Virus record (IMG/VR): IMGVR_UViG_3300037516_000092
Span: 1-25,093 of that record
DNA: 25,093 bases
Direction: 5' to 3' (one strand)
From: a virus
The translations under genes and the position numbers were made by a program. The notes beneath the pieces are model-generated. The model saw nothing but the letters and a program-made list of their open reading frames with translations, did no database searches and was not told the origin of the DNA. Positions 4,798 through 25,093 of this stretch are shown here, one piece after another. The stretch's first letter is position 1. Each line of letters starts with the position of its first letter.

Positions 4798-5793
4798 TTA
4801 GTAAGCAATCTTGCCGTGTGCTTGCGGGTGCTTGACGCAGAGAGTGCCAGCAACGTCAACGTAGCCACGCTCGCCGCCACCTTGGTTCTCAAGACGAGTG
4901 CCGCCCATTGGGATCAGGGTGTTAAAGCCAAGATACTTAGGGTTAAGGACGTAACCGACGTTGGTCGATGCGGTTGGCATACAGCTTGGGTTGCCGTTGA
5001 CGATCTTCACGATACCGAAGTCGGAATCATAGAGGTTGACCGAAAGCGTGATTGCCTTGCTGGTCGCGTCTTGATTGACATGATAAACATTGTTCGTGCT
5101 GACGGATGGAGCGCGGGTGAAGCCACTGATGATTTGACGAAGCGCGGTATTCGCAACAAGCGTCAGGCTGTTCATTTCGCCATTCTTGCTGAAGATCGAA
5201 CCCAACATGGTGTTGAAGGTCGATTCGGTAACAGTGGTAGCAAGGATCGAACCGGAAGGGGTGCGATAGTCAAGCGGAACAGCGTTGGTGGCTTGGGCGG
5301 TGGACTGAATCCACTTGCCAAGGCCGCGCATACCGTAAGGAGTGCCAGCACCGTTTTCGACAGTCATTTCGTTGTCGGAAGCGATGGTTGCCTCGATATC
5401 ACGCTTAATTTCACGCATCGACTTTGCTTCAGCTTGAGCGACGTTGGCAGGACCAACGCTGGTAACAGCTTGTTGCAGGTTCGACACGAGGTAATCGCGG
5501 CGCATCAGTTGGATGTAGTTACCCAGACGAGCGCGGTCAGCAAACTTGTCGCTGAACGAGGTAACGTCGGAACCTTCGGAAATACCAGTCGTAACTGGGG
5601 ATGCGAGGGAATCAACGGTCCACTCGGTGAACGTCGAAGCTGCCTTGCCTTTGGAGCAAAGCGACAGGATTGGGGTTTCTTCTGGAGCAAGGATAGCAAG
5701 TTCGTTGCTGAGATCCTCACGGTTGGAGATTGCGGAACCCTTGACAGTTTTGGCTTGGGGCGCATTTGGTTGATAAGTAGCACTAATTGGCAT
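4798..5793 (-). CDS. Major capsid protein, SU10-like (DUF5309-type), 331 aa
   Basis: This is the main shell protein of the head. It resembles the SU10-type major capsid family. The N-terminal segment has REDLSNELAILAPEETPILS, in which a run of helix is followed by APE-x-TP. Then come a Trp-containing strand (FTEWTVDSLASP), a polar loop, the RLGNYIQLMRRDYLVSN region (about 90-106) and a long helix with EAKSMREIKRDIEATIAS (about 122-139). The second half has strands with a GIVKIV motif and LYDSDFG, and a C-terminal YVDVAGTLCVKHPQAHGKIA. A length near 330 aa fits that family. It lies directly after the scaffold gene and before the decoration-like gene. The ATG at 5793 follows an A/T leader (CTAAATATCAAATATC) without a Shine-Dalgarno sequence. 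Confidence 0.9.
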   Translation of the reverse strand: MPISATYQPNAPQAKTVKGSAISNREDLSNELAILAPEETPILSLCSKGKAASTFTEWTVDSLASPVTTGISEGSDVTSFSDKFADRARLGNYIQLMRRDYLVSNLQQAVTSVGPANVAQAEAKSMREIKRDIEATIASDNEMTVENGAGTPYGMRGLGKWIQSTAQATNAVPLDYRTPSGSILATTVTESTFNTMLGSIFSKNGEMNSLTLVANTALRQIISGFTRAPSVSTNNVYHVNQDATSKAITLSVNLYDSDFGIVKIVNGNPSCMPTASTNVGYVLNPKYLGFNTLIPMGGTRLENQGGGERGYVDVAGTLCVKHPQAHGKIAY

Positions 5794-8802: not shown

Positions 8803-10868
8803 TACTGTTGCATTCCTTGGGTTGTTACGCCGCCCATTTGAGCGGGATTTGTTCCGATTTTGCCGATCTCAGCGTTCTGCATCTGTTGCATTTGGAATTG
8901 ATACTGCTCCATGTATTTCTGGAGGCGACCTGCAAACACTTCGTCCATTTGCGCTCGTTCCGCAATATCCGGTTGCTGGACATACGCCTGCACCATCTGC
9001 ATTGCGATCTGTGCGCCGTTGGGTTGCGCGGGAACCTCGATACCAGCAAAGATCTTCGCAAGGTCATCAGTGACGCTCTTGGCGACCTTCTGTTGCGCCT
9101 CCTCAACGGGTTGCAGAACGTAGTCCGCAAAGATCGGGTTGATACTCGACGCGGTGAACTCAAGGAGCTTGTTGACATCTAGAACGCCATTGCGATCAAG
9201 TTGAACAAGCGACACCATGTTCTTGAGTTGCGTCTCCGCAGTCTCTGGGTCAGTGGTCAACGAGTCAAATGACACGGTAATGCTGAAGTTCTCGTCGGGG
9301 CTACCCTTGGTCATCGTCTGGGGGTTAGGGTTTCCGGTGACTTGGAAGAAAACCTCATCCGGCCCCATGCGCTGATACAGCTTCCACGCCATCGTCAATA
9401 CGTCGCGGACATGATCAAGGAACTTGCCAATGTAGAACTGTTGACGAGCAGCCGTGAGTGGGTTCGTAAGATCAAGCCCGACAGCGCGGTCTGCTTGCGC
9501 TCGCATAGACATCTCAGACTCAATGGAACCTTGGTCCATTTGAGGAACTGGCCCCCAAGCAATCTCGCCAAGACGACGATAAGGAACGCGACGGCCCGGA
9601 CCCCAATCGGAAGGAGGACGGCCAGCAGGGTGCATCAGCGGCGGCAAGGTGGCCAACGAAGCGCGGTCGATCCGGCTGTCACGCTCGGTCTTGATCTGCA
9701 TCTGCGGACCACGGAGAATGTCGGAGAACGTCTGCACTTCATACATCCGCTTCTGGTCATTCGCCAGTCGAGTCACAACAAACGGGTAGTCGTCATAGCC
9801 ATTGAGAAGCTCATGCTTTGCGTAGCCGTCCGTAGTTGGGTGGAATACGGTGCAGTAGATGCCCTCGCTGCCATCCTCTTCATCAATCAGGCGCTGGTAG
9901 CCATAGACCACCATAACAAGGTCATTGTCATCAGTGATAGGCAGACGCGTAACGGTTTTTACGCTCTCGCCGTCGAGATACATGGAGTCTTTCCCGCGAA
10001 GGTTGGAGATAGCGTGATCGACCCACTTCCTGTCCCATCCCTCATTGGTAACTTTTTTCTCAAGCTCCTGAGCAGTCAGGAACGTGCGCCAGAAGATGTA
10101 TGGAGCGCGTTGAGGGTCGGAAACATACGGAGGGAAGATGACCTCTCCATCCGGGGCGCACGAATAAACAATCGGGCAATCAACGGTTTGACGAGGGAGT
10201 GGGATTTCAGCCATCCCGGTCTTCCGCATATCTCGGATTGCCTTCTTAGCTCGTTTGTTCGACAGGTCGGGGAATCCTTGTTGGATCAATCCCGTGAGCA
10301 TCTCGTCATCGTTCCCATCAATAATAAGGTTCGCTAGATCAGGAGATTGTTGGGCAATTTGGTCGATGGTGACTTGTTGCAGATATGTTCTTTTTTCTCG
10401 CTTCCATCCAACATAGGATACCATAATCCCCTTCTCTAGCAAATAGTTCGCACCCAACTCCATTTGGTTTTTGAAGTCAGGAATGTAGGTCGAGCGCATC
10501 CACTTAAGGAACGACGACACAACAGAAGCTCGCGGCATTGATGCCATAGACGTTGGGAACGCCTTGATGTGGCTGCGCTGGAGGGCTTGGTCAAACAGAG
10601 ACACATACATGTCAATCCGCTCACCAACCACGTTAACTTCTTGATCTGAAGCACCTTGCCACGGAAATGCGTTTGCTCCGTTCTTGCGAAGATCGTCAGA
10701 CTTGCCGTCCCAGATATTGCGCCGATCATTATAAGAGCGCAGACATGACTCGAAATAGTATTCAAGATCAATTAGGCAGGTATCATACGCATCAGTTAAC
10801 GCATTAACGTCTGGCTCTTTGTCAGCGTAAATAAGGGATTCGTCCTCTAGTTCTAGTGATTCGATCAT
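8802..10868 (-). CDS. Portal protein (head-tail connector), 688 aa
   Basis: The portal is the dodecameric ring through which DNA is packaged and ejected. Recognition rests on size (about 690 aa), its place just after the terminase, and motifs such as N-A-F-P-W-Q-G-A-S-D-Q at about 66-76, IDMYVSLFDQAL, and a long helix-rich C-terminal region. The middle has beta-strand and loop segments (IVYSCAPDGEVIFPPYV, YIFWRTFLTAQELE). The last 50 residues are Gln/Met-rich (YQFQMQQMQNAEIG), probably a flexible crown or barrel tail. I chose ATG at 10868 because it overlaps the upstream TGA as ATGA; a GTG at 10913 would add 15 residues that are not portal-like. There are no membrane segments. The family resembles large P22-like portals, but I cannot assign the exact subgroup. 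Confidence 0.88.
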   Translation of the reverse strand: MIESLELEDESLIYADKEPDVNALTDAYDTCLIDLEYYFESCLRSYNDRRNIWDGKSDDLRKNGANAFPWQGASDQEVNVVGERIDMYVSLFDQALQRSHIKAFPTSMASMPRASVVSSFLKWMRSTYIPDFKNQMELGANYLLEKGIMVSYVGWKREKRTYLQQVTIDQIAQQSPDLANLIIDGNDDEMLTGLIQQGFPDLSNKRAKKAIRDMRKTGMAEIPLPRQTVDCPIVYSCAPDGEVIFPPYVSDPQRAPYIFWRTFLTAQELEKKVTNEGWDRKWVDHAISNLRGKDSMYLDGESVKTVTRLPITDDNDLVMVVYGYQRLIDEEDGSEGIYCTVFHPTTDGYAKHELLNGYDDYPFVVTRLANDQKRMYEVQTFSDILRGPQMQIKTERDSRIDRASLATLPPLMHPAGRPPSDWGPGRRVPYRRLGEIAWGPVPQMDQGSIESEMSMRAQADRAVGLDLTNPLTAARQQFYIGKFLDHVRDVLTMAWKLYQRMGPDEVFFQVTGNPNPQTMTKGSPDENFSITVSFDSLTTDPETAETQLKNMVSLVQLDRNGVLDVNKLLEFTASSINPIFADYVLQPVEEAQQKVAKSVTDDLAKIFAGIEVPAQPNGAQIAMQMVQAYVQQPDIAERAQMDEVFAGRLQKYMEQYQFQMQQMQNAEIGKIGTNPAQMGGVTTQGMQQ

Positions 10869-11153: not shown

Positions 11154-12752
11154 CTAGTATCCCCCAGACCCGTGAGTTGTAACAAATGATTGGCTATTGT
11201 CAACGTGATCGAGATTTGCGATGGCTGCGTAGCGACAAACATCAATTGGATCTTTCCACGCTTCCTTAAGCCCACCTTCGCCAGTGTATTCAGAGAGTGC
11301 TTGAATGATGTTCTCGCAGTCGCTGCTGACGTAGAAATGCGGTCTGTTAACGGAATCCAAAGGTCGAGCGGTATCCCATGACATCTTGCCGATCAATGCT
11401 TGAAGCCCATCGTCGATATCCAGCCCCGGTGCAGGGATGCAAACCATTCCCGATTCGCTTAGGTCTTCAATGATTGAGGAAGAACCGTCTTGCACCTGAT
11501 ACTTTGCAGCCCCAAGGCGAGGGTCGATCAATCGCTCAAAGATTTCCTCGTCGCCCTCCATCTCTTGAATTGCCTCGATGTAGTCACGGATACCAAAGCC
11601 TTGCCCCTTAGCTCCCGGCCCCGGCATCCACTTCCCGCTTTTCCATTCAGCCCAGTCACCAACGTCAACTCCCGGCCACTCGCGGTAAACCCAGAACGTC
11701 CCGCTCTCGTCAATGGCAATCCAGCACATGAACCAGTTCTTCGCCCCAGCAGGGTCGATAACGTGATAGCGCGTGATATTCTTGGTCGGGATGGAGGCGG
11801 GAGGAACCACGTTGACGACCTTGTTAAACTTGGGGAACTTGGTTGCATGGGACTTCATTGGAACCCCGTAGGCGCGGATCAGAATCTCCTCCCGTGTGCG
11901 TCCTGACAGCGTTTCTTTAATGCGCTCGTATCCGCCAAAAGCATTGTCTTGAGAGTGGAAGTAATGAACTGATGCGTTTAGCTTTTTGGACCGCTGAACG
12001 TATGGAACCAACTCACCATTAAGGAGTTCCGCTGGTCTTGACTCGATAGTCGTCGCCCCATCAAGATACTCTTTGATGACCTCTGTCCAACCGTCAATCG
12101 GAGTGAACGTGACGAGCATCTTGGCATTTCGCGTAGCTAGCCGGAACCTGAGCGTGTTAATCAACTCTGGCCCCAAAAGGTATTCATCTGCCCATACACC
12201 GATGTTGTGCCAGACTGGATTCTTAGACCCAAGTTCTGCGCCTTCCAGAATTGTCGGGTTATTCTGATACTGGGAATACGTTTTGAAAATGATTTGAGAA
12301 CCGTTTGGAAGAATCAACGATGAGTCCGTGAAGCCAGTCTTCTTCTTGTAAGAGATGTAGGTGTTTGCGCTTGTCTGCTTGGTCTTGAGGTTCTCTGGCA
12401 ACCAGTCCCACACTGCGCTCTGCTGCTGGCGAATGCTGACCTCGGATGTTTGAGCAAAGCAGAAGATCTCAGACTTCGGGTTCTCGATGGCTGCACGGAC
12501 AACGGAGAACGCTCCCCACTGAGTTTTTCCACTGCGATTTCCACCTAGTGCCAAGATCTCGTTTACCTCAAATAGTTGTTCTTCAGCCTTACTCCAGTGA
12601 GGGAGCCTGAACCCGTAGTGATACGGGTCTTTTTCAGCGTTCTCAATCGCCTCATGGTAAACCGAATGAAGCCCGATTAGCTCATCAGGCTCCATTTGCA
12701 CCATCTCCTCATCGGTGGGTGGCGTTAGGATTGCGTGTTTCCGCCAAATCAT
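11154..12752 (-). CDS. terL: Terminase large subunit (packaging ATPase and nuclease), 532 aa
   Basis: This is the motor that pumps DNA into the prohead and cuts the concatemer. The N-terminal ATPase has Walker A GGNRSGKT at 70-77, Walker B with acidic pair at 184-190 (IGVWADE) and a coupling motif VTFTP at about 214-218. The C-terminal nuclease, of the RNase H-like fold, has acidic residues in YHVIDPAGAK (Asp333), RLIDPRLG (Asp410) and GLDIDDGLQ (Asp445-448). The length is within the usual range. The start ATG at 12752 overlaps the small-subunit TGA as ATGA, which fits the common order of small then large terminase. GAG just upstream (GAGATCCT) is a weak Shine-Dalgarno candidate. A one-base gap separates its stop from the next start. 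Confidence 0.93.
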   Translation of the reverse strand: MIWRKHAILTPPTDEEMVQMEPDELIGLHSVYHEAIENAEKDPYHYGFRLPHWSKAEEQLFEVNEILALGGNRSGKTQWGAFSVVRAAIENPKSEIFCFAQTSEVSIRQQQSAVWDWLPENLKTKQTSANTYISYKKKTGFTDSSLILPNGSQIIFKTYSQYQNNPTILEGAELGSKNPVWHNIGVWADEYLLGPELINTLRFRLATRNAKMLVTFTPIDGWTEVIKEYLDGATTIESRPAELLNGELVPYVQRSKKLNASVHYFHSQDNAFGGYERIKETLSGRTREEILIRAYGVPMKSHATKFPKFNKVVNVVPPASIPTKNITRYHVIDPAGAKNWFMCWIAIDESGTFWVYREWPGVDVGDWAEWKSGKWMPGPGAKGQGFGIRDYIEAIQEMEGDEEIFERLIDPRLGAAKYQVQDGSSSIIEDLSESGMVCIPAPGLDIDDGLQALIGKMSWDTARPLDSVNRPHFYVSSDCENIIQALSEYTGEGGLKEAWKDPIDVCRYAAIANLDHVDNSQSFVTTHGSGGY

Positions 12753-13315
12753 AGGATCTCGGCTTCGATTGCGTCTTCCTTGATCTTACTGGCAATGCGG
12801 GCCTTTGCGTCAAAGATCATCTTGGCAGCGTCATCGAGGCTAGCTCCCTTGCGATGCTCCACGATTGAGGATGCCATTCCCGTAAGTTGCGCCGCCTTGT
12901 CGGTTAAGATACCCACCGTTACCGCCAGCTTGTCCGGGCTGATCTTAGCAAGCTCCTCTGGATTATCAAACAGTTGTTGGGAACGCTCAAAGAGCAGGTC
13001 TGTGTAGTCTTGCGCTGCAATCGCGTATCGCATCGAGAACTCCTTGCGCTTTGTCTCCAGCGTGTCGTTATGCCGCCATTGGAGGCTCCTGATGGTCTCT
13101 CTGCCGAGTCCCGTCTTCTTTTGGATGTCGGTTATCCTCGCGCCTTGTGCGGCCAGCCACAGGGCCATTGCGGCCTTATTAGGGGCATAGTGTTCGACGC
13201 AGTTTGAAGGATTTAGCTTTGCACGTTCCTTGACTTCAAGAAACCACGCAGACTTGTCTTCTCGTTCGTCAACGTATTCCGCTTTCAGCTTCTCGTTTGG
13301 GTCTTCGGTGTCCAC
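12749..13315 (-). CDS. terS: Terminase small subunit, 188 aa
   Basis: The small terminase binds the packaging site and directs the large subunit. Its N-terminal DNA-binding region shows a helix-turn-helix at about residues 58-82 (ARITDIQKKTGLGRETIRSL, then QWRHNDTL). A long helix with N-P-E-E-L and a C-terminal helical region follow (DKAAQLTGMASSIVEHRKGA), the usual oligomerisation type. The position is directly upstream of the large subunit with a four-base overlap. The start is GTG at 13315, with no ATG nearby. The first Met codon after it is about residue 50, which would remove the front of the HTH region, so GTG is preferred. It lies eight bases after the stop of the giant polyvalent protein gene. 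Confidence 0.85.
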   Translation of the reverse strand: MDTEDPNEKLKAEYVDEREDKSAWFLEVKERAKLNPSNCVEHYAPNKAAMALWLAAQGARITDIQKKTGLGRETIRSLQWRHNDTLETKRKEFSMRYAIAAQDYTDLLFERSQQLFDNPEELAKISPDKLAVTVGILTDKAAQLTGMASSIVEHRKGASLDDAAKMIFDAKARIASKIKEDAIEAEIL

Positions 13316-13323
13316 AAATGTTT

Positions 13324-16300
13324 CTACTTCAGTTTTGCCGCAATAGCAATAGATTTTGCTGCGGGAAGTAACCTCTTGTCGGTTTTCACGAGTCCACTAG
13401 TTTTGATCTCAACGCCAATCTTCTCTAGCTCACGCCGCAGGGATGGTGTTACAACATTATCTTTAATGACAGTGCCTTTAGGTATTGACTTAGAAATGAG
13501 ACTGGCAACTTCGCTATCTGGGACAATCCGTTTGATCTTTGCGTAGCGAGACAGGTTCACCATTCTTCCACCAGCCCACTTATGCTCCCCAACTGCTCGT
13601 TTTGAGCCTTTTGCTTGGTATTCGTCATTAGCAGGGATCTCAACCTCAACCGTGACTAAGGGCTTCTTGTAGGCAGCGGAGAACTGATCGTTCAACGGGT
13701 TTGATGATGAGTGGAAATACGGAGCGTAGATCGCCCATACATCATCTCCATTTGGCCCCTTCAAGCGAAAGTTTCCAGCGTTCCTTCCTGTCGTTGGAAC
13801 AAGGTCTGGACGCTCTTCTGCCTTCATCCATTTACCAATCTCTTCTGGTGGTCTGCGACTCTTTCCGATAGACGTAGACATCGGTGGATACAGCTTCCCG
13901 TCGATCAACGCCATTGCACGATAACGTGTAAGTGTTGGCTCTTTGTCTAGCTTTTCTGCGGTAGCATTATCCACAGTAGTGTTGGTTTCACCACTCTCTG
14001 GCAAGTATCTCATCTGCCCAGTTTGCGAGAGCTTCCGCATCTCTGGGGTAATGTTGACACGCCAAATTGGGACGCTTCCAGTCTCAGCTTCCTCGCCGCT
14101 CATGATGTCAGCTTCTGTGGATTGCTCAAGATCAGTTTTCTCCACCTTGCCACCCCATTGTTTGACATACTTACCTACCTCCTTTGGCTGCATGGTGTCG
14201 TAGAACCCACGCATGCCGGAACCGCCAACTTTTAGGTCATTACCCTCAAAGTCTACAGGTGCTGTTGCAGCCATGATCTTATCAGCCATGTCTTTCCCTA
14301 TTACTTCGTCCAGCTTTTTGCCTGTGAACTGACCAGCAGACATCTGACCCTCAACCGTGCCATCGTTACGAACCATCAGCTTAAATGATGATCCACCTTT
14401 CTCGTCAATTCTGACAGATCGGGATTCGGCATTCACCATCGGGACTGAAATCTTATCAACGCTCTTGCTCAGATCGAACCGCTCATTCTGTGTGTCACCC
14501 ACAGTCCAGCCAACCCAGTCCTTGCCACTGTCCACTGCATCACGCAGCAAGCGTTTGAATAGCTGCAAAGGCCAAGTGGTGCGGAAGGGGGCGTCTGCGA
14601 TGCGACCAGATGCGTCCGTTGATATAGTTCGGGCCAATTCTGGAACTTCTGATTCTAACTTTTTGTATTGTTCAGAATTTGGATCAAGTTCATTTTGCAA
14701 TTTGCGGATTTCTTTGATCCTATTGCTTGCTGATTGCTTTTCGTTTTCTGTAGTTACATAACCCTTCTTCCTCCCCTCTTGATGCCTGTCGGACTGGAAC
14801 TCCTCAGCAAACAATCCTTCCATACCATCCGCATCCGTGCGCTCGTTCGTCCGCATGTGCGCGACGTAGTTTGGGATGTCTGGGAAGTGGGATGATGTGT
14901 ATTGAGACGCGCTCTTTGGATACTTGGTGTAGTAGTCACCCAACGCTTCTGCTTGACTATTCCCGACAGCTACCGATTTCCCTTCTTGGTTTTTGATAAA
15001 CCAGCGGGAGTTTCCATTGTTAATCTTCTCGTCGAACGAATGTCCAGTAGGAAGCCCCTGCTGTTGCGGCATCGCCAGCACCACCTCGCGGTAGTTCTCG
15101 CCGCCGGGGAGGACGTATTGGGCGAATTTGACTTCTCCTCGTCCGGCCAGATCGGGGTCGGTTGACAAGTATCCGCTATTGGGGTCATTCATCTCCGCCT
15201 CGGCTTGTTCTCGAGATTCAAATGGCCCAGCGTCTTCCGTGGGGGTGACGATAAACCATCCCTCGTCCGTTTGTTCAACTCGAACACCTGAATGAAACTT
15301 CTTGCTGCGAGGATCGCTAAGAGTAACCTCCTCAAACCGCACCGCACCCTCGTTACGAAGGTAGTTAAGCAGATCCTCCTTGGATACCTTACCGTCCTTC
15401 TCAAGACTCGTCAGTGCTTGCTCAATACCGCTCCACTTGATCTCGTCTGCCTTGACTCCACTTCCCCTCGTAGGGTCGATGGTAGCCATGATCTGGGCTA
15501 CTGTGGCGCGGTTCGGCACTTTGTCAGCGATAACCTTGTCAAGTTGGGAATAGAAACCATCCTCGTCCACGCCCTCTGGCATGAACCTCGTCTGCGATGA
15601 CGTGGGTGCTTCACCCTCTGGCATCTGGCGTTGCTCAGGCATCTTGACTTGGCTTGTGGCCTCGTAGCGAGGAGTGTTACGCAAATCTTTCGGCTCACCG
15701 TTAGCGTCCATGATCGGCTCTCCTTCTGGGAGGTAGTTGATCTTGATCATGTTGTTCTGGTAGGGCAACTGGGTTGAACCGACAAGCTGGGTTGCCTTAT
15801 TCATGCGATCCAGACGGTATGACTTCACCACAGCGTCGACACGATCTGAAGCCACCAATGGATTGATGTCTTTGTGACCCTTCCCTACATTGCCGAAGAC
15901 GGAGTTAATGAAACTCTTGTGGGTCTCCCACTTTCCTCCGTATTTTTCTTTGAAGTAAGCGTCAGTGGCTTGGTTTTTTCCATGAAGGTCAATGATGGCG
16001 TTTGCGTCCCGCAGGATCGTTTCCATGTTCCCATCATACAGCATCCTCCCGCGCTTGCTTGCCGCCTTCTCTGAGACGTTGGCGAACAGTTGGTTTGTGG
16101 ACATGACGCGGATAAGAATGTTGCCGTCCTTGGAGATTTCCACCCCATACGGAACAACGTCTCGCAACTGAGGCTTGATCTGGTCATACTTCCACTGTCC
16201 TTTCCTGTTCTTCTTGAGGGCAGACTGGTAGATCACGGAGAATCTGTGTCCGCGAGTGGCTGGATCGGCATTCGTATCGGACGTTTGCCTAGCCCCCTCG

Positions 16301-19300
16301 TTAAGCAGCTTTAATTGCTTTATTTGCTTGCTGTTGAACCTGCCCGAAAGGCTCAGTAGTTCGATCTGGCGATCATTAAGATACTGCCCACTCCAAGTGT
16401 TGTTTTCTGGGTTGTAGGCAAGCTCACCGTCAGGGATCGTCTCTCCCCTATTCTGCCTCGCCTTGAGATCATCAACCAGCAACAACCCGGCTTGGGAACG
16501 CAACTCGTCAGTCTCTTTCTTCAGTGGGACAAAATCTCCGTTGCCGTCAACCAGCGGACTGCCGTCAGAGTCGGATTCCCACAAGGAGTTTAGCTCGCCA
16601 AGGATCGGATCTGACTTACCTCGAATCGGTATCTCTACACCTTCTCTGGCTTTTCTTTTTGCAGCGTCAATTCCTCCACGGCGACCAACCGATTCGCTAA
16701 CCATCTTTTGGAACATCCTCCTGACCTCTGGGCTTTGATACAGCTTGCCTCCCAAGAACCCATTGCCAGTCACCATCTTTCCGCTGTTGTCAATCACTCC
16801 ACCAATGCGGAAGTGAAGGTCGCGCAGGATCGACGACTTGTTTAAGATTGAATCGCCAAGCGCACGGCCCTTGTCGTTGATAATCATGCGTCCAGCCATC
16901 TTGCCCAGCTTTCCGCTCTCCACCAACCCAAGCATGTCATCAACATTGGTTTCGATGAAGTATTCTTCTGCTAGATACTTTTCGTCGGGAGTCTTGAAAT
17001 CTCTTTCACTTTTCGTCATGGGGTCGCCAATAGCGTCCCGCAGCTTCACTTCCCGCTCATGTTGTTTCCGCAGCCTGCCGACATACTCTTCTTTGAAGTC
17101 AGAGTATTGAGCGTCGTAAGATCCATCCTTACCCCTTAGTAATCCGCCAGTCTGAAAGCCGTCCCCTACAAGCTGTGCGATAACCCCGTCTCCGATACCA
17201 TTGTTGAGCATGTGGTGCATGAACTCATGCGTCAGCAGAGGCTTCAATGGATTAGGAGCGTTGGGATTGATCATCACCGTTTTCGTGTTGCGATCATAAG
17301 CTCCAAGTCCTTGGTCAACGAATTGAATCTTTGCCCCCGGATTGCTCGCTGAGAAAGTCCCCACAACCCTCTTGAGGTCTGAAGGCATCCCGTTATACAT
17401 CAGTCGCTGGGCAGGGTCTGAGATCGAACTGTAGAAGTTAAGCGCGTCACCGTTCTGGAGTTGCTTGATGCGATTTGCGCTACCCATCGTGATGCCGCCC
17501 AGTGCCGCTCCCGTTCCTCCAAAGAACAAGGTTTCCACAGCGGCTTGCTTGAAAACATTCGGGTTAAGGTCGCCACCTTCCGAAACCCACTCGTAAGCGA
17601 GGTCCACTGGGTAGGATGCTAGTAAACCCTTGGTTATTCGACTGCCCATCCCTGTGACCAATCCTCCCGCTGTTGCCGTATCCATCAGGCCGGAAACCAT
17701 GCGGTGCGCTGGTCCCTTGTTTGGCATCTCGTAGATACGCTTCCAGAATCCAATTTGACCTCTAGCCTTGGATGCCTCCTTGCCCACCAGACTGACATAC
17801 TCGCCAGCGGCCTTGAGGTAAGGAGCCGTTGACCAAGCTAGCCTTGCTGCGGCAGGAATAAATGCAACGGGACCAAGCCCAAGAGCCGCGCCAGCACCAC
17901 CAAGACCGGACAATGACGATATCCTGTTCATCGCGTTGTATGCCTTGTCGGCTCCGACCTTCGCCGCAAAAGTGGAAAGACCTTTATCAATCCCGATCAT
18001 GCCTCGGCCCGTAAGCTCCAGCGTCTTGCCTATAGCTACTACTGGCAGGTATGGGATCTGTTTTGCCACTTGGCCCATTTGCAGAACCTTGTCAGCGACA
18101 CCTGCGCTTTGGGTTGCTTTCGCCAAATCATCAGATACTTTTGTTATTTCGTCAGTGAATCCACCAACTCGCGTTAATGCCTCTTGACCTTTCACCCGCG
18201 ATTGGTTGGCGAGCTTTAAGGCATTATTAGCCCTGTCTGTCAAACCCGCCTTGGAGAACTTTTCAGCCATGCTCTCCGCGATGACGGCTTGCCTCTCAGC
18301 GGCTTGCGCGGCGGCTTGGAACCCAGCGGTGCGCCTTTCTAGTGATGCTAGTTGCCTAGTGCGCTCCAGCACAAGCGCGGCTTTGGAATCTGCTTGCAAA
18401 AGGCTTCTTGATATCGGCCTAAACGCAACACCAAGACCCTTTCCTGCAACCCCAAAGGCCACCTTTCCAGTCATCGCGGCAGCACCATAAGGGTTTATCA
18501 TTCCGGCAAACTGCCCAGCCGACTCGCCTCTTTTTTCTATTGCCGCCGCCTCTTCTTTACCGACTAGTTCAACATTTTTTTCGCGGGCCTCAGTCAACCC
18601 TAGCTCCGCTCCTGCCATTTGGCCCATTGCGTCAATAACTTCAGACGCTCTCGATGCTTGTATGTCGCGGTCTATTTTTTCAAATCTCTGATCAAACGAC
18701 GAGAGTGCTTCACGCTCCTCTTCCTCGCTATCAGCCAATGCCTTAATTAGTCCAGTCCCCGCTATTTTGTATACCCCTGTAGCCAATTGCGCCCCAGACT
18801 TAACCAAGCCGCCAAGAGCCCCTTCAGCCTCCAAGTTAAGTGCCGCTTGTTCCTTTGCAGTGCGAGCGACGGGTGCATATGGCGAACCGCCAGTAATAGA
18901 GGATGTAGGAGTCGCAGTTGCTAAAAGAAGAGCAAGATTCTTAGCTCCTTCCTTCACCTCTTTTCCAAATTGGCTAAACGTATCTCCCCAAGATAACTCT
19001 TTACCTGACCCGTCTAGATCTAGTTCTTTCGCCTTGTTATAGAGAGGTAGGTTCTCCTCTTTAAGTAAGTCTGCGGGATTGGCCATCATAGCCTTCCCCG
19101 TATCGTTCAGAGTGTAGTCGTCGTTAAGCGCACCAGCTTTCTTTAGCGAAATCGCCATCTCCCCATTCTCGGTCGCCACACCTTCTGGTGTTGCATACCC
19201 AAGTTTAATCAAATCATCGGCAGATGTGATCTTAGGGAATAGTTGGTTGTCATATATCGGGCTAGCATTAGCACTGTATGAGGGGACTTGAAAGTCCTCT

Positions 19301-19401
19301 GGAAGTTGTTCGATGTCCTCTGGAGCCGCATCCTTGATGGACATGCGGAATGAGTGTTGGTCGAGGGCTTGCTTTAATGCTGTTTTTTGATCAGGAGTCA
19401 T
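13324..19401 (-). CDS. Giant polyvalent/ejection protein with gluzincin motif, 2025 aa
   Basis: This is one open frame of 6078 bases. Residues 1-700 are helical and Ala/Gly-rich with hydrophobic stretches (about 450-610, for example GLGPVAFIPAAARLAW), like internal virion proteins that cross the host envelope. A zincin site HEFMHH is at 725-730, with a likely third ligand Glu in AEEYFIE at 811-817, giving a gluzincin layout. From about 1283 (FYSQLDKVIADKVPN, then GVKADEIKWSGIE) comes a chain of modules I recognise from phage polyvalent proteins: N-E-R-T-D-A-D-G at 1519-1526, EEFQSDRHQEG at 1533-1543, TVGDTQNERFDLSK near 1633-1646, GSGMRGFYDTMQPKEVGKY near 1726, and VNITPEM near 1781. The last 220 residues form another domain of unknown role. 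Modules are joined by LPEG/MPEG-type linkers (1223, 1260, 1274, 1799). It is likely packaged and injected with DNA. The peptidase activity is inferred. Confidence 0.88.
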   Translation of the reverse strand: MTPDQKTALKQALDQHSFRMSIKDAAPEDIEQLPEDFQVPSYSANASPIYDNQLFPKITSADDLIKLGYATPEGVATENGEMAISLKKAGALNDDYTLNDTGKAMMANPADLLKEENLPLYNKAKELDLDGSGKELSWGDTFSQFGKEVKEGAKNLALLLATATPTSSITGGSPYAPVARTAKEQAALNLEAEGALGGLVKSGAQLATGVYKIAGTGLIKALADSEEEEREALSSFDQRFEKIDRDIQASRASEVIDAMGQMAGAELGLTEAREKNVELVGKEEAAAIEKRGESAGQFAGMINPYGAAAMTGKVAFGVAGKGLGVAFRPISRSLLQADSKAALVLERTRQLASLERRTAGFQAAAQAAERQAVIAESMAEKFSKAGLTDRANNALKLANQSRVKGQEALTRVGGFTDEITKVSDDLAKATQSAGVADKVLQMGQVAKQIPYLPVVAIGKTLELTGRGMIGIDKGLSTFAAKVGADKAYNAMNRISSLSGLGGAGAALGLGPVAFIPAAARLAWSTAPYLKAAGEYVSLVGKEASKARGQIGFWKRIYEMPNKGPAHRMVSGLMDTATAGGLVTGMGSRITKGLLASYPVDLAYEWVSEGGDLNPNVFKQAAVETLFFGGTGAALGGITMGSANRIKQLQNGDALNFYSSISDPAQRLMYNGMPSDLKRVVGTFSASNPGAKIQFVDQGLGAYDRNTKTVMINPNAPNPLKPLLTHEFMHHMLNNGIGDGVIAQLVGDGFQTGGLLRGKDGSYDAQYSDFKEEYVGRLRKQHEREVKLRDAIGDPMTKSERDFKTPDEKYLAEEYFIETNVDDMLGLVESGKLGKMAGRMIINDKGRALGDSILNKSSILRDLHFRIGGVIDNSGKMVTGNGFLGGKLYQSPEVRRMFQKMVSESVGRRGGIDAAKRKAREGVEIPIRGKSDPILGELNSLWESDSDGSPLVDGNGDFVPLKKETDELRSQAGLLLVDDLKARQNRGETIPDGELAYNPENNTWSGQYLNDRQIELLSLSGRFNSKQIKQLKLLNEGARQTSDTNADPATRGHRFSVIYQSALKKNRKGQWKYDQIKPQLRDVVPYGVEISKDGNILIRVMSTNQLFANVSEKAASKRGRMLYDGNMETILRDANAIIDLHGKNQATDAYFKEKYGGKWETHKSFINSVFGNVGKGHKDINPLVASDRVDAVVKSYRLDRMNKATQLVGSTQLPYQNNMIKINYLPEGEPIMDANGEPKDLRNTPRYEATSQVKMPEQRQMPEGEAPTSSQTRFMPEGVDEDGFYSQLDKVIADKVPNRATVAQIMATIDPTRGSGVKADEIKWSGIEQALTSLEKDGKVSKEDLLNYLRNEGAVRFEEVTLSDPRSKKFHSGVRVEQTDEGWFIVTPTEDAGPFESREQAEAEMNDPNSGYLSTDPDLAGRGEVKFAQYVLPGGENYREVVLAMPQQQGLPTGHSFDEKINNGNSRWFIKNQEGKSVAVGNSQAEALGDYYTKYPKSASQYTSSHFPDIPNYVAHMRTNERTDADGMEGLFAEEFQSDRHQEGRKKGYVTTENEKQSASNRIKEIRKLQNELDPNSEQYKKLESEVPELARTISTDASGRIADAPFRTTWPLQLFKRLLRDAVDSGKDWVGWTVGDTQNERFDLSKSVDKISVPMVNAESRSVRIDEKGGSSFKLMVRNDGTVEGQMSAGQFTGKKLDEVIGKDMADKIMAATAPVDFEGNDLKVGGSGMRGFYDTMQPKEVGKYVKQWGGKVEKTDLEQSTEADIMSGEEAETGSVPIWRVNITPEMRKLSQTGQMRYLPESGETNTTVDNATAEKLDKEPTLTRYRAMALIDGKLYPPMSTSIGKSRRPPEEIGKWMKAEERPDLVPTTGRNAGNFRLKGPNGDDVWAIYAPYFHSSSNPLNDQFSAAYKKPLVTVEVEIPANDEYQAKGSKRAVGEHKWAGGRMVNLSRYAKIKRIVPDSEVASLISKSIPKGTVIKDNVVTPSLRRELEKIGVEIKTSGLVKTDKRLLPAAKSIAIAAKLK

Positions 19402-19412
19402 TAATGAGACAG

Positions 19413-21401
19413 TTAAAGGCCGAATTGCTTATTCAGGTTGAAGCGAACATCTTCAGAACGACCACTAGTGGTTGGCGTTGCCACACCACTACCGCTGTTG
19501 CCTCCCTGTCTTGATTTAGCTCTCTCCAACTTTTCAAGGTATTCCATTTCGTCTCGGAACAATGGAGTGGATTCTGGATTATCCAAAATCTCAGCAGCCC
19601 TTGTCACTTGCCTTTTGGATGCTGACGTTGCTCCAGATGCTGGGGTCATTGGCATGACTTCAAAAATACTGTCGTCTAGTCCAAGTGCCTTACCAGCCCT
19701 CACAGATCCACTAGCAATTCGCATCAGGGTGCTTTGTGCCGACTTCCAGTCTTGCCCCAGATCGAGATCGTTAACTGCGCGTTGGAGTGCCATAGTTTCC
19801 TTTTCGGACATTCCGGCAGCGGTTCCGCTTTGGGCCTTAATATCCCGCATCGCCTGCACCAAGTCTTGTCCTTTTAGGTTGTTAAATAGTGCATATACAC
19901 CGCCTTGGCTTCTTGCCAGTTCGTCCAGCTTTTGTTGTGGTATTGACTGACCGAAAACCTTGTAACTCTCAGGGTGATTAGCTAGCTTTTGAGCGGTATC
20001 GAATCGGCTTAGTAAGGTGTATGCAGCAGACCTGTCACCAACTCGTTTCGCCGCCTTGTTGATGATGGCAGTATTGCGTTGACCGTATTCAGATTCAGAC
20101 ATGATCTGCGGACCCTTGGCTTCTGGCTGCATTAGCAATTGCTGCTTCATCTCGTCCACAACGTCTTGTGACGGAGCTAGCTTTGGATCTTGATACGCTT
20201 GATTCAACGCGGATTCATACAGCCTTGCCTTCCTTGGAGACAGTTGAGTCAGAGTCTCATCACTGACTTTTTGCATTTTAGCGGAGTCAGCTAGTGACTG
20301 TTTTGCCATCAGTCCTTGACGCGCACTTTGCTGCGGTGCTGGTGATTGCGTAGTATTGAACGCAAGAGAAGGCTCGGTGGGCAATGCGTTTTTAGGCATG
20401 TTCTGAGCCATTGCCGACGACCGACCCTCCTCGATCATCCTTGCTACCATTGCTTGCTCTTGTGGAGTTCCGACAGGTTGACTCATTGAGGTTTCTGGGG
20501 GGAGTTCAGGAAGCACACCCCCTCCATAGATAGCCCTATCAATAGCCTCTTGATCAAATTGGTTGTATTTTGGCGGATTGATTGGACGACCTTGACTATC
20601 AAGCACCTCTCCACCTTCGCCTATCAAACGTCCACCCTTTGTCTTGGTGTATCTAGTAATGTTTCCTGCCTCGTCTTCAGAAATTTGGACCAATGCTTGA
20701 CCGCTTTTGTCTTTTACTGGTTCAAATCCTTCTTCTGCGTCAGCAATTGCCTCTGCCAACTGGCTGCTGTAACGCTTTACAGTTTCTCCCATTTCTGGGG
20801 AGCCACTGATGATGGCGTTCTGGATTCCGCTGACGACTGGATTCACCTTGTCTACGGGAAGACCAATTTTTTGCGCCCGCTCCATCAGGCTATTCAAGTT
20901 CATCAGGTCCGCGCCAGCAGGTCCGGGGACAGAGGCCGGAGGGTATCCGCCTGTTGGGAGCGGCATTGGTTGCTCTGAATATTGCGCGGCTCCTCTCGCC
21001 CCTTGGCCTCCACCATAGCCCCCGCCCAAGTAGCTTGGCATCCTTCCAAGTTGTCCTTCTTGAACCGCCACCGCCCGCATATTTGTATTTTGCTTGAGCA
21101 AGTCTTGAATGCTAGCTCCAAGCTGACCGCGAACATCAACAGGAGTATTCTCGTCCTTGAGGCTGGAAATCAAATTGTCATAGTAAGATACTTGAGACGG
21201 GTCCATGATCTTTGCCGCTTCCGCGATTTTGATCCCCATCGTTGCCATGTTCTTACTTTCTTTTTGCTTCTTGAAGTAGTCAGCAGCTTGACCCACGGCT
21301 TGTCCAATAGCCTGCATCGGCAAACCAGCCGCTTCTACAGCACCAGCGTAATTTGGTTGCTGATACCCAGTAAATCCGATATTTCCGCCCGTAAGTGCCA
21401 T
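19413..21401 (-). CDS. Internal virion/ejection-like protein, 662 aa
   Basis: The family is not recognised with certainty. The N-terminus has a small-residue segment (YAGAVEAAGLPMQAIGQAVG), a Lys-rich helix (YFKKQKESKN) and then a helical body. A Gly/Tyr/Pro/Gln-rich low-complexity linker (about 124-165, for example YLGGGYGGGQGARGAAQYS) leads to a long Gln-, Ala-, Met-rich helical region. The C-terminus is again helical with Gly/Ser linkers. There is no enzyme motif, signal peptide or clear transmembrane helix. The gene lies between another internal-virion-like gene and the giant polyvalent gene, all within 20 bases of each other. That is the arrangement of internal core or ejection proteins in podoviruses. 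The role is inferred from order and composition. Confidence 0.8.
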   Translation of the reverse strand: MALTGGNIGFTGYQQPNYAGAVEAAGLPMQAIGQAVGQAADYFKKQKESKNMATMGIKIAEAAKIMDPSQVSYYDNLISSLKDENTPVDVRGQLGASIQDLLKQNTNMRAVAVQEGQLGRMPSYLGGGYGGGQGARGAAQYSEQPMPLPTGGYPPASVPGPAGADLMNLNSLMERAQKIGLPVDKVNPVVSGIQNAIISGSPEMGETVKRYSSQLAEAIADAEEGFEPVKDKSGQALVQISEDEAGNITRYTKTKGGRLIGEGGEVLDSQGRPINPPKYNQFDQEAIDRAIYGGGVLPELPPETSMSQPVGTPQEQAMVARMIEEGRSSAMAQNMPKNALPTEPSLAFNTTQSPAPQQSARQGLMAKQSLADSAKMQKVSDETLTQLSPRKARLYESALNQAYQDPKLAPSQDVVDEMKQQLLMQPEAKGPQIMSESEYGQRNTAIINKAAKRVGDRSAAYTLLSRFDTAQKLANHPESYKVFGQSIPQQKLDELARSQGGVYALFNNLKGQDLVQAMRDIKAQSGTAAGMSEKETMALQRAVNDLDLGQDWKSAQSTLMRIASGSVRAGKALGLDDSIFEVMPMTPASGATSASKRQVTRAAEILDNPESTPLFRDEMEYLEKLERAKSRQGGNSGSGVATPTTSGRSEDVRFNLNKQFGL

Positions 21402-21419
21402 GATTTTAATTATATGAAG

Positions 21420-22430
21420 TTAGTAAACTGGAGTAGCCTTGGGGATTCCTCCAAACAGGCCGCTTAACCCCATGCCCGCTGAGAGACCCATTCCGCTGAG
21501 TCCCGTCGCGCCAGCCGCTCCTCCAGCAAGTCCAGAAAGCCCAAGTCCCGCCGATAATCCGCCAGTGAATGGGGCGGCAGCAAGACCGATCCCCTTGGTG
21601 ATAAGCCCCATTGTTTGCGCTTTGCGTTGTTGGTCCGCTTGGAACTTGGCCATGTTATAAGCATCCAATGAAGAGGCCCGTTGCTGGGCAAATCCAAGTG
21701 GGGCGTTATAGTCAAATTCACCAGAAGACGCTGGGCCTCCAGTAAGTGCCATCCCAAGCGTTTGTTGCCCTGCTTGATACGAAAGTGGTGATTGCCCCAA
21801 CAAGTTCAATCCGGGCGCAGTATAAAATTGCTGTGCCGCATCGTATGATCGTCCACCAGCTTGTGCTGCTTCAGCTCGCTTGCGAGCCAGAACGTCCTCG
21901 CGGCCCATCGCCTCACTCACGATGCTGCGGTTTCCACCAAGTCTGCCTGCGGCTTGGAATCCCTCACGCGACTGCTGTTCGTAGCTTCGTTGTTCTTGCG
22001 GAGTAACTCCTTGTGCTGCGGCCCTAGCTCGTTCTGCCTCAGACGCAAATCCTTGAACAACGGCAGCTTGCTCTGGAGACATTGCCTCCATCAATCCTCG
22101 CGCAAGACCAGTCTGCCCGGTCATTTGTCCAATCTCCCCAGCACGAAGCTGCCCCAGAGTTTCGCCCGCCCGCTGACCTGTAGAAAGCTGTAACGCCTCT
22201 AGTCCGGGTTGGCCCCCAACACCACCAAGGAACTGTCCGGTCTGCCCAAACATTTGGGCCATAAACTCCGGGCCATACTTGGCACTTGTTTGAAGTGCTT
22301 TAGGGATTGCGGTCGAATAGTAATTATCAAAAAGATAACCTGCTTGTTCTCCAGCAAGGCTAATTCCTTTCTTATTTGGCTTTAATGGATCAATTGGTTT
22401 TGGAACCTCGGGTGAAGAAAATAATCCCAT
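21420..22430 (-). CDS. Internal virion/ejection-like protein, 336 aa
   Basis: The start MGLFSSPEVPKPIDPLKPNK gives a short Pro-rich head. A helical Gly/Gln/Ala-rich body follows, with SPEQAAVVQGFASEAERARA (about 116-136) and QEQRSYEQQSREGFQAAGRL. The C-terminal third is very rich in Gly, Ala and Leu (about 270-330, for example LAAAPFTGGLSAGLGLSGLA) and repeats GLSG/GLSAG motifs. It may form a membrane-active or flexible segment of the kind used in DNA ejection. No enzymatic motif is seen. It stands between the fibre gene and the two larger internal-virion-like genes. The leader is A-rich (GCCACTAAAAAT) with no Shine-Dalgarno sequence. The name is inferred from composition and context. A tail-associated adaptor is an alternative. 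Confidence 0.8.
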   Translation of the reverse strand: MGLFSSPEVPKPIDPLKPNKKGISLAGEQAGYLFDNYYSTAIPKALQTSAKYGPEFMAQMFGQTGQFLGGVGGQPGLEALQLSTGQRAGETLGQLRAGEIGQMTGQTGLARGLMEAMSPEQAAVVQGFASEAERARAAAQGVTPQEQRSYEQQSREGFQAAGRLGGNRSIVSEAMGREDVLARKRAEAAQAGGRSYDAAQQFYTAPGLNLLGQSPLSYQAGQQTLGMALTGGPASSGEFDYNAPLGFAQQRASSLDAYNMAKFQADQQRKAQTMGLITKGIGLAAAPFTGGLSAGLGLSGLAGGAAGATGLSGMGLSAGMGLSGLFGGIPKATPVY

Positions 22431-22618: not shown

Positions 22619-23305
22619 TTATCTAATTATTGCCACATAAGCAAAACTACAGTCTCCCGGGCCTGGGTCGCTTGTGTTTGATAGAATCGTTCTTACTTTT
22701 ACCTGCGTTGTTGTTTTCGTGAATGCGTAGTCAATGTCAAGAAAACCTCCTCTAGCAGTAACAGTTTCTCGTTGCACAGTACCCATAATAACGTAATCAG
22801 TATCTGGCATTGCCGTAGTCATAGTAATGGTGTAAACTCCAACGGAATTTTTAAAAACCGACGACACGTTTCCTGATTTTATAATGTTTCCGCTTGCATC
22901 AAACTTTACCCATGCTCTAATCCCGTAAATAGGAGCCGTGCCAGTCTGCGCTCCACTGAGCTTGGCGGCGGTGATGTTTGCATCAAGAATCTTGGCCGTT
23001 GTCACTACACCAGCATCAATAGTAGCAACTCCACTAGCTACCGTAAAGTCACCAAAGTCAGAGTTTGAGAGTTTGGCTGGAGTCACGTTTGCATCTAGGA
23101 TTGCAGTTGTCGTAACTGCATTTGCAGCTAGCTCGTTTGCTCTAATTCCACCAGCCGCAACGGAAAGTTTACCAGTAGTAACGGCAAGAGTCGTGCCAGT
23201 AATAGCAGTAGCCGTAATCGTGCTTTGATCGAGGATGTTGTTCATCTTCGTGCTAGTGATTACGTCAGTAGCTGTGAAGGTGGAAGTTGTATCAATTGCG
23301 CCCAT
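22619..23305 (-). CDS. Tail fibre-like protein with N-terminal repeat, 228 aa
   Basis: The first 125 residues are Thr/Ala/Ile-rich. They contain at least two copies of a unit like V-T-T-x-x-I-L-D-A-N-x-T-x-A-K-L-S (about 63-82 and 97-116), and less perfect copies before. Such repeats form thin trimeric rods in phage fibres. The C-terminal 100 residues (RAWVKFDASGNIIKSGNVSS, then TITMTTAMPDTDYVIMG) match the pattern of a widespread fibre-tip domain, in which R-A-W-V-x-F is followed by V-x-Y-T-x-x-M-x-T-A-M-P-D-x-x-Y, ending in a beta strand (SFAYVAIIR). It therefore probably binds the host surface or joins to another fibre. It follows the nozzle-like gene by three bases. The fibre call is strong; its receptor is unknown. 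Confidence 0.82.
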   Translation of the reverse strand: MGAIDTTSTFTATDVITSTKMNNILDQSTITATAITGTTLAVTTGKLSVAAGGIRANELAANAVTTTAILDANVTPAKLSNSDFGDFTVASGVATIDAGVVTTAKILDANITAAKLSGAQTGTAPIYGIRAWVKFDASGNIIKSGNVSSVFKNSVGVYTITMTTAMPDTDYVIMGTVQRETVTARGGFLDIDYAFTKTTTQVKVRTILSNTSDPGPGDCSFAYVAIIR

Positions 23306-23308
23306 GCT

Positions 23309-25093
23309 TTATCTTTGTGAAATGATTTGTCTGTTGGTGACTGAACCAGCTACTTTTACTGAGTTGACCTTAGGTGATCCGATAGTTCTTGTCAAGATCA
23401 TTGTTCCGGTGAAGCCCCTGATGCCACCCAACCTACACCGGATGCTTGCTGTTTCAGCTTCAGTAGCTGTAGTGGGAGTAAGCAATCCACCGAGCAAAGT
23501 TGTAGTTGTGCCTATAGATTTAGCGTCGTCAGGATCTTCCGCTGCAAATGCAATGTTATATTCCGAGTTTTGGCCGGGAAGAGACTGGATGTTTACCTGT
23601 GCGTCGGTAAACCGCTTGCGTTCCATTGTCCCGAGGTCGTATCCCCTAGTCGTAAGAGACGCATTGATTGTTGGGGACACAACAGCCGCAGAGTTGTCCA
23701 CGTTTAGAGTGTCATTGGAGCTTTCGGATGCTTCAATTTGATGCAGCCCGCCATTGGGTGTCACCGCATAGAGGTTGTTCCTCTCGCTAGCACTACCAAT
23801 CACGAAGTCTTTAATCAAGAACCTAGAATCACCAAAGGTATCCAGTGATTCCCACCCTTTATTTAGGAAGTTATACACCAAAATGGCGTTGTTCCCATAA
23901 GAATCACCCGCTCCCGGAACCGAATCAAGCGGAACAGCAAGATAATACCTGTTTTCAAACAAGACTCCCACTGCTCGGTCAGAGTAATCAGCATTAATCC
24001 GGTCGATATACGGCTGAATGTTCTTGGAAAGCGGCTCCTCAGTGCCTCGCAGGTTGTAATCGTTAAGGAACTCAATCCCATAAACGCCATCGTCAGATAA
24101 GAACAGCATTGCATTGCCGCGCATGACAACAGACTTGCGAGCGAGGCATCCAATCTCAGATGTAAGCTCCTTAACGGTAACATCCAGAAGGCTTCCCAGC
24201 GTCCCCTTAACAAGATGAAGGCTGTTCCGGTTTAGGACAACCAACCCGTCGTCATAGAAGCCGTGCATTGCCACAACAAAGTCTGCTGTCCCACCGCTTA
24301 CACGGAATTGGTTCTCAATCTGGTCAAATGTAGTAGTGTCTAGAATATCTGATACGGATATTTCATCGGTAATCTTGCGGCTAGTGTATGCTGGAACATT
24401 ATAAGCTCCTGATTGATCGTAGTAAAACGGAACCCACAGCCTGCGTTGGAAATGGATACCCCACGGTGCGCCGGGCTGGTGCATAAAGCCACCGCCTACG
24501 CTAAATCTGCCACCGAACTCAAAAATATCGGTGCTTGACGTGCTGTAATTCCCAACTGGCGCATACCATGCAATCGTCGTTGTGGTTGCCGACACAACTT
24601 GGTATTCTTTCCCAACCATTTCAGCAAAATCAACAGTTTCCGCTTGGCGCACAATAATAATGTCGCCTTGTTTGATTGTTACGTTACCAGTAACTGTCGC
24701 AGTTATCAATCCGCTTGCAATCTCGACATCTTTTGCCTGAATGTTGAAAGTTTGTGGCTGAGTATAAGCTCCACCGGGAGATAGCGTGAACCCGTCAGTG
24801 GCGATTGCAACACTTGTGCCAAACGTAACCGCCTGACTAGTGGTGAAAACATAAGTGAATGTATCTGCGTCAACAACGCTAGCGACGGCAAACGTCCCAT
24901 TTGCGGGTGTGCCACCAGTAAGCCCTGCAATTGTCACCATTGTTCCGACAACTAACCCATGATCTCGCACTGACATGGTGACGGTAGTCGTTCCAGCTTG
25001 TGATGCTGAAAGAATTTGCCTGCCATTGGGAAACCACTCAAGTGCTTGTTGTCCTTCACGGAAGATCATTACCTTGTCGAACACTTGGATCAT
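23309..25093 (-). CDS. Tail nozzle / tail-tube-B-like protein, partial, at least 594 aa
   Basis: The frame reaches the right edge of the window. An ATG happens to fall exactly on the edge, but the first visible residues (MIQVFDKVMIFREGQQALEW) read as the inside of a beta-propeller-like domain rather than a start, so the gene probably extends further. Similar proteins of short-tailed phages, such as nozzle or tubular B proteins, are longer. Motifs include LWVPFYYDQ, SDDGVYGIEFL, a Tyr-Leu-Ala-Val-Pro strand (YYLAVPLDSVPGAGDSYGNN), then AILVYNFLNKGWES, typical of the blades of such tail proteins. Residues about 30-110 contain a Thr/Gly/Val-rich insertion (VRDHGLVVGTMVTIAGLT), possibly an immunoglobulin-like decoration. 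It forms the tail channel below the adaptor. The assignment is by pattern and context. Confidence 0.78.
   Translation of the reverse strand: MIQVFDKVMIFREGQQALEWFPNGRQILSASQAGTTTVTMSVRDHGLVVGTMVTIAGLTGGTPANGTFAVASVVDADTFTYVFTTSQAVTFGTSVAIATDGFTLSPGGAYTQPQTFNIQAKDVEIASGLITATVTGNVTIKQGDIIIVRQAETVDFAEMVGKEYQVVSATTTTIAWYAPVGNYSTSSTDIFEFGGRFSVGGGFMHQPGAPWGIHFQRRLWVPFYYDQSGAYNVPAYTSRKITDEISVSDILDTTTFDQIENQFRVSGGTADFVVAMHGFYDDGLVVLNRNSLHLVKGTLGSLLDVTVKELTSEIGCLARKSVVMRGNAMLFLSDDGVYGIEFLNDYNLRGTEEPLSKNIQPYIDRINADYSDRAVGVLFENRYYLAVPLDSVPGAGDSYGNNAILVYNFLNKGWESLDTFGDSRFLIKDFVIGSASERNNLYAVTPNGGLHQIEASESSNDTLNVDNSAAVVSPTINASLTTRGYDLGTMERKRFTDAQVNIQSLPGQNSEYNIAFAAEDPDDAKSIGTTTTLLGGLLTPTTATEAETASIRCRLGGIRGFTGTMILTRTIGSPKVNSVKVAGSVTNRQIISQR

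Follow-up and report, generated by a model that had tools for sequence, protein, structure and literature searches.

A cysteine-free phage polyvalent protein with a predicted zincin-like peptidase and recurring peptides at its module boundaries

Why would a phage place a zinc-peptidase signature in the middle of a protein of 2025 amino acids (aa), ahead of a chain of modules? The question is raised by a 25,093-base contig of IMG/VR (record IMGVR_UViG_3300037516_000092, analysed over its whole length and called the window here) from a phage that encodes a major capsid protein of the SU10 type, a terminase and a putative portal. The open reading frame (ORF) in question, P0001, occupies 13324..19401, as an original prediction made from the letters alone had correctly placed it, and lies on the minus strand with its ATG at 19401 and its stop at 13324. 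The reading that we favour, tentatively, is that this is a large ejection protein of a short-tailed phage and that its own zincin most likely cuts the chain at short peptides of the form R[FY][ML]PE, called seams below, thus freeing the modules.

Peptides at the module boundaries

We gathered relatives from IMG/VR with the whole protein and, separately, with its downstream module alone. They are alike over residues 1-1262 (15616..19401, minus strand) and wholly divergent thereafter, with total lengths of 1341 to 2599 aa. This constant core comprises a Gly/Ala-rich N-terminal half, the zincin and a C-terminal core part, and it is followed by nothing, by a module that we call module A alone, or by other modules including ART-PolyVal (PF18760), which scored above the Pfam cut-off in two siblings (L003 and L006) and below it in a third (L014). 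In the window protein, on the minus strand throughout, the core ends in MPEQRQMPEG just before a first seam, RFMPE (residues 1272-1276, 15574..15588). Module A, which is common in phage polyvalent proteins, comes next (residues ~1277-1797, about 14011..15573), followed by a second seam, RYLPE (1798-1802, 13996..14010), and a last module (~1803-2009, 13373..13995) that is common to L002 and L036. The chain closes with a decayed third seam, RLLPA (2010-2014), and the C-terminal tail SIAIAAKLK (together 13327..13372); at the position of RLLPA, L002 has RFLPE and then one more module. The predicted chain of polyvalent modules is thus borne out, and the swapped module block, together with ART-PolyVal in the siblings, supports the identification of the 2025-aa chain as a polyvalent protein.

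The protein as a whole gave no match in Pfam or NCBIfam, including any named polyvalent-protein domain, and a profile search of the PDB gave none either. Even at a threshold of E = 1, none of 50,697 phage records matched the core, and the last module likewise had no match among phage records. PHROGs gave one match, PHROG 7348, over residues 1492-1721 (E 5e-16), which falls within module A. This module has no Pfam or NCBIfam model and is very widespread, with at least 548 occurrences confirmed among the 600 candidate stretches listed in viral contigs; it may be an enzyme, to judge from its invariant residues (H, N, E, Q, S, W and K). A C-terminal tail of the form (S)(A)IANAAKLK, which lies at 13327-13362 in the window, recurs in many members after differing last modules, and it is possible that this tail is a packaging signal or an anchor for exchange.

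In the window family, R[FY][ML]P[ED] stands at each module boundary. Nearly all copies in the family set (91 of 101) are no more than 20 aa away from a homology breakpoint, and the median distance from breakpoint to motif is 8 aa, compared to 106 for random positions. No copy was found in the core of any complete family protein, and the other ORFs of the family loci, 121,694 aa in all, contain none save three in a detached module ORF of L006. In that sibling a lone in-frame TAA stands right before the seam (9964-9998), and the detached ORF of 911 aa begins at the seam Met; the split may stem from a sequencing error, or the gene may come naturally 'pre-cut'. The other ORFs include capsid and scaffold-region genes in several loci, and the idea that the seams are prohead-protease sites common to capsid or scaffold was rejected on account of the missing motif. 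All six Arg codons occur at the seam, as do Phe/Tyr and Met/Leu exchanges. It is thus the protein sequence and not a DNA site that is conserved, since all six Arg codons are used, and a repeat at the DNA level only was rejected for the same reason. We also rejected the seam Met as an internal translation start, because the sister seams FAKARP and SFSIG have no Met and because CTG or TTG codons for Leu occur here.

The same module is bounded by other peptides in other phages (FAKARP, SFSIG, FMAGP), often alike at both ends within one protein. We collected module A from viral and bacterial genome contigs and compared both flanks for 83 cluster representatives. The best shared 6-mer of the two flanks scored 19.8 within a protein and 15.3 between proteins (permutation p=1e-4), and none of 10,000 shuffles reached the observed match. 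Paired seams include FAKARP/FAKARP, SFSIGA/SFSIGT, LYSPAD/LFSPAD, FMPERP/FMPERP, VKFAGE/ARFAGE and RFSMAP/RFSLAP. By a strict criterion, 28 of 60 complete representatives have matching seams, so the rule is common but not universal.

Such a pattern could also arise if the seams are never cut and serve as flexible hinges in a beads-on-a-string chain that threads the tail, the peptide being copied because exchanges occur within the seams. There is a precedent in N4 vRNAP, which is packaged uncut and has been proposed to cross the tail as loosely linked subdomains (PMC12633501), and the Phe and Pro codons of the seam are biased (TTC, CCA; also ATG), partly reflecting common descent. However, a plain hinge needs no fixed five residues, and here they persist through every Arg codon and through the Phe/Tyr and Met/Leu exchanges; nor does a hinge call for two ends of a module that match within a protein and differ between lineages. 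We consider this explanation doubtful.

The zincin-like domain as candidate protease

If the seams are cut, the core itself holds a candidate enzyme. Residues 640-832 (16906..17484, minus strand) contain the motif HEFMHH at residues 725-730 (17212..17229, minus strand), which had been taken for the signature of a gluzincin-type peptidase. In a core alignment of 25 sequences, with identities down to 22%, 63 of 1262 columns are invariant, and H725, E726, H729 and E813 are all among them, whereas F727, M728, H730 and E812 vary. The third ligand had been sought at Glu812 or Glu813, within KYLAEEYFIET. The second of the two was retained and the first dropped, residue 812 being E, V or I in the relatives; Glu813 (16963..16965, minus strand) is likely to be the third zinc ligand. 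Two further invariant residues are Y773 and, on the preceding strand, N712. An HExxH or HExxxH arises by chance in about 2% of shuffled sequences with the composition of this protein, and its presence in the deeper relatives is not due to how they were chosen, since most of them were found via the downstream module and not via the motif. In a second set of polyvalent zincins (L066, L071, L080 and others), about 20% identical, the corresponding N, H, E, H, Y and E are retained, and hhalign links this set to the zincins of the window family with a probability of 93.9%. Four proteins with RFMP seams (L071, L072, L075 and L081) carry HExxxH in place of HExxH at the same position of the chain, a variant known from the work of Iyer et al. 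2017 (PMC5512222); they had been considered as RFMPE proteins that lack a zincin, a view that was rejected once the HExxxH was seen.

The predicted structure is consistent with this assignment. An AlphaFold2 model of residues 640-832 reached a mean predicted local distance difference test (pLDDT) score of 80.7, and its elements run in the order helix, three strands, HExxH helix and a helix (168-189 of the model) that holds Glu813, the order that Iyer et al. 2017 gave for polyvalent zincins (PMC5512222). A larger model, of residues 600-980, had a mean pLDDT of 51 and was good over the zincin only. Foldseek found no significant match in the PDB (best E 0.32), and 27 of its 45 rows were zincin-type peptidases or their relatives, mostly gluzincin-like (PprI/IrrE, jannalysin, abylysin, selecase, ArdC, lethal factor and MATCAP). 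The conserved residues and the zincin-like predicted fold together support a zincin of the gluzincin type at residues 640-832, in which zinc binding and catalysis would be expected. Two findings had been named in advance as speaking against it, a lack of zincin fold around residue 725 and an HExxH that varies beside conserved neighbours; the reverse was seen on both counts, with a zincin-like fold predicted there and a conserved motif among varying neighbours. The envelope-crossing N-terminal half that had been proposed alongside it was not directly borne out: no stretch reaches the transmembrane threshold by hydropathy, although the first ~700 residues are Gly/Ala-rich.

It is highly improbable, in our view, that the fold lacks catalytic activity and owes its retention solely to a part in structure or packaging. 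The N4 region that holds the MPTase domain is required for encapsidation (PMC5512222), which fits such a role. However, Glu726 and all three ligand positions are invariant across families that are about 22-30% identical while the adjacent residues vary, and a structural role would not require this.

Of the roles that the original prediction offered for the peptidase (cutting envelope proteins, cutting host defence proteins, or processing itself), the last is the best supported, since every seam between modules bears a copy of a candidate site. The seams may be lineage-specific cleavage sites, most likely for the built-in zincin. Among the 28 complete representatives with matching seams, 26 contain HExxH or HExxxH, compared to about 7% expected by chance, and seam similarity still tracks zincin similarity once that of the modules is corrected for (partial rho 0.24, p=5e-4). 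Processing of polyvalent proteins by their zincins was predicted by Iyer et al. 2017, who named no sites, and P1 DdrB has been reported as processed (PMC5512222). A wider form of the idea, which we regard as doubtful, is a general seam code, in which each lineage would mark every module boundary with its own peptide, recognised by its own zincin, and a module that moved would adopt the seam of its new lineage.

Several findings weigh against self-cleavage at the seams. The other 32 of the 60 complete representatives have no clear matching seams by the strict criterion. The association between a zincin and matching seams is nominal (Fisher p=0.025) and confounded with protein length, and the correlation between seam and zincin, both of which lie in one gene, can reflect recognition but also shared lineage. 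The closest analogue in function, N4 vRNAP, is packaged unprocessed although it contains a zincin domain (PMC5512222). L005 (2456-6481) is a complete, core-only protein of 1341 aa with the small terminase gene directly after it, and it keeps HEFMHH intact with one seam remaining and no modules at all; freeing modules therefore cannot be the sole role of the zincin. Finally, L192 and L213 have matching seams and neither HExxH nor HExxxH.

The case of L005 would be understandable if the zincin were itself an effector, one that acts early in infection by cutting a protein of the envelope or of host defence, and the seams were incidental. The weak fold matches to free-acting regulators and effectors (PprI/IrrE, lethal factor) point the same way. 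We hold this to be unlikely, because it leaves the seam rule and its correlation with the type of zincin unexplained, and because the zincin is part of the constant core, whereas it is the effector-like modules that are swapped.

L192 and L213, in turn, would be expected if the seams were processed by another protease, such as a prohead protease at head maturation or one of the host, while the zincin did some other job. The (L/M)-x-E of the seam presumably resembles the sites of T4-type prohead proteases, which speaks for this possibility. A further point in its favour is that in P1 the prohead protease Pro cleaves DarA (PMC12810830). However, outside the L006 module ORF the motif was not found in the other ORFs of the family loci, no prohead protease was recognised among the scanned proteins of the window, which is a fragment, and the seams of sister lineages have A, S, D, K or Q in place of the glutamate. 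Processing by another protease thus appears quite unlikely to us.

A cysteine-free, putative ejection cassette

The neighbourhood of the gene bears on the delivery of the chain. Behind the tail genes come three consecutive genes whose products have no cysteine, all on the minus strand: a putative first ejection protein of 336 aa (21420..22430), a putative second of 662 aa (19413..21401) and, as the last, the 2025-aa protein, which has zero cysteines. The near-absence of cysteine is not peculiar to the window. A set of 118 module-A proteins of viral contigs, which total 280,274 aa, contains 24 Cys (0.09 per 1000), compared to 7.64 per 1000 in 503 other ORFs of the module-A loci, and the scarcity extends to the two to six genes that precede the polyvalent genes. 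The three corresponding genes of phage C75C1 are cysteine-free as well. As a control, N4 gp50 (3500 aa), gp51 and gp52 and T7 gp15 and gp16 have zero Cys, and T7 gp14 has one; the Dar proteins of myophage P1 do contain Cys (DdrB 2, DarA 1, DarB 9). Module-A proteins on contigs from Bacteroidales genomes (e.g. L150, L157 and L161) have up to 29 Cys, unlike those from most other sources.

Judging from the position of its gene and from the absence of cysteine, as in the N4 and T7 ejection proteins, the 2025-aa protein is probably ejected with the DNA, which agrees with the ejection-protein character seen in it before. The absence of cysteine may support an unfolded passage through the oxidising periplasm, and its near-absence seems to mark podophage ejection proteins in general. 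We found no statement on the absence of cysteine from ejection proteins in PMC8954989, PMC12633501, PMC5512222 or our literature searches.

From the core, the zincin residues, the module swapping, the seam rule and the absence of cysteine, as read in the sequences, we infer the following course of packaging, ejection, zinc-dependent catalysis and seam cleavage. The protein would be made as a single cysteine-free chain, packaged, and ejected with the DNA, as the last of the three. It would consist of the constant core, with its Gly/Ala-rich half and gluzincin-type peptidase, and of a swappable block of effector modules joined by R[FY][ML]PE. The zincin would act in cis or in trans and cut this chain at the seams or beside them, and the freed modules would act separately in the host.

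The tail genes upstream of the cassette (22619..25093, minus strand) stand in the same order as in phage C75C1 and encode a 228-aa protein in the tail-fibre position and a 594-aa protein with weak Hc3/tail matches, truncated by the contig end. Directly downstream of the polyvalent gene are a putative terminase small subunit (12749-13315) and the terminase large subunit (11154-12752), and further on lies the SU10-type major capsid protein (4798..5793; Pfam PF17236, E 3.7e-50), all on the minus strand. A gene for a GDSL-type esterase/lipase (2200-3369; Pfam Lipase_GDSL_2, E 1.8e-16) is located amid the structural genes and is perhaps a polysaccharide deacetylase on the tail. Genes for a metallophosphoesterase (258-992) and an endolysin-type amidase (1004-1576) occupy the contig end.

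Known systems and biological meaning

The zincin polyvalent proteins of Iyer et al. 2017 (PMC5512222) are likewise large multidomain phage proteins in which HExxH or HExxxH is joined by a glutamate in a later helix, and the ART-PolyVal of the siblings and the proposed processing by the zincin link the two further. The layout of constant core and swappable tail and the family-specific seams belong to the window family and are not in that work. In N4 (Schitoviridae), gp50 is the last and largest of three consecutive ejection genes with gp51 and gp52, has an HExxH domain and, like its two neighbours, no cysteine. Unlike gp50, the window protein has no recognised RNA polymerase domain; in gp50 the zincin lies behind the polymerase. 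Direct homology to the N4 zincin was rejected, as hhalign gave a probability of 0.5% and no confident alignment. T7 gp14-gp16 likewise form a three-gene ejection cassette, which has no array of modules with a zincin; gp16 contains a transglycosylase (PMC8954989) and has a stray HExxH at 559.

Phage C75C1 (OQ984151) has the closest capsid (57% identity) and the same order of Hc3, fibre and three cysteine-free genes. Its third ejection protein, of 1343 aa, differs in having neither HExxH nor seams. DdrB and DarA of P1 are packaged Dar proteins that are proteolytically processed, and DdrB has HELGH. In addition to their cysteines, they differ in that no peptide resembling R[FY][ML]PE is visible in DdrB; DdrB was rejected as a worked example of a cut seam on this ground, and direct homology to its zincin (hhalign probability 8.6%) was rejected as well.

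The class of ejected polyvalent proteins with a zincin, and the idea that the zincin processes them, were known already (Iyer et al. 2017). What appears to be new are the peptides at the seams, the fact that they are specific to lineages, and the use of a cysteine-free cassette as a marker, as we did not find them described in the literature searched, which covered few subscription journals. They turn a general suggestion of processing into named candidate cut sites. The seam peptides delimit modules with no need for known domains, and the near-total absence of cysteine is a simple aid for reading an ejection cassette. If the seams are cut, one injected chain would supply several early effectors that can be swapped like cartridges. 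If the seam code holds true, phages would be free to exchange libraries of modules, which would still be excised in the proper cell.

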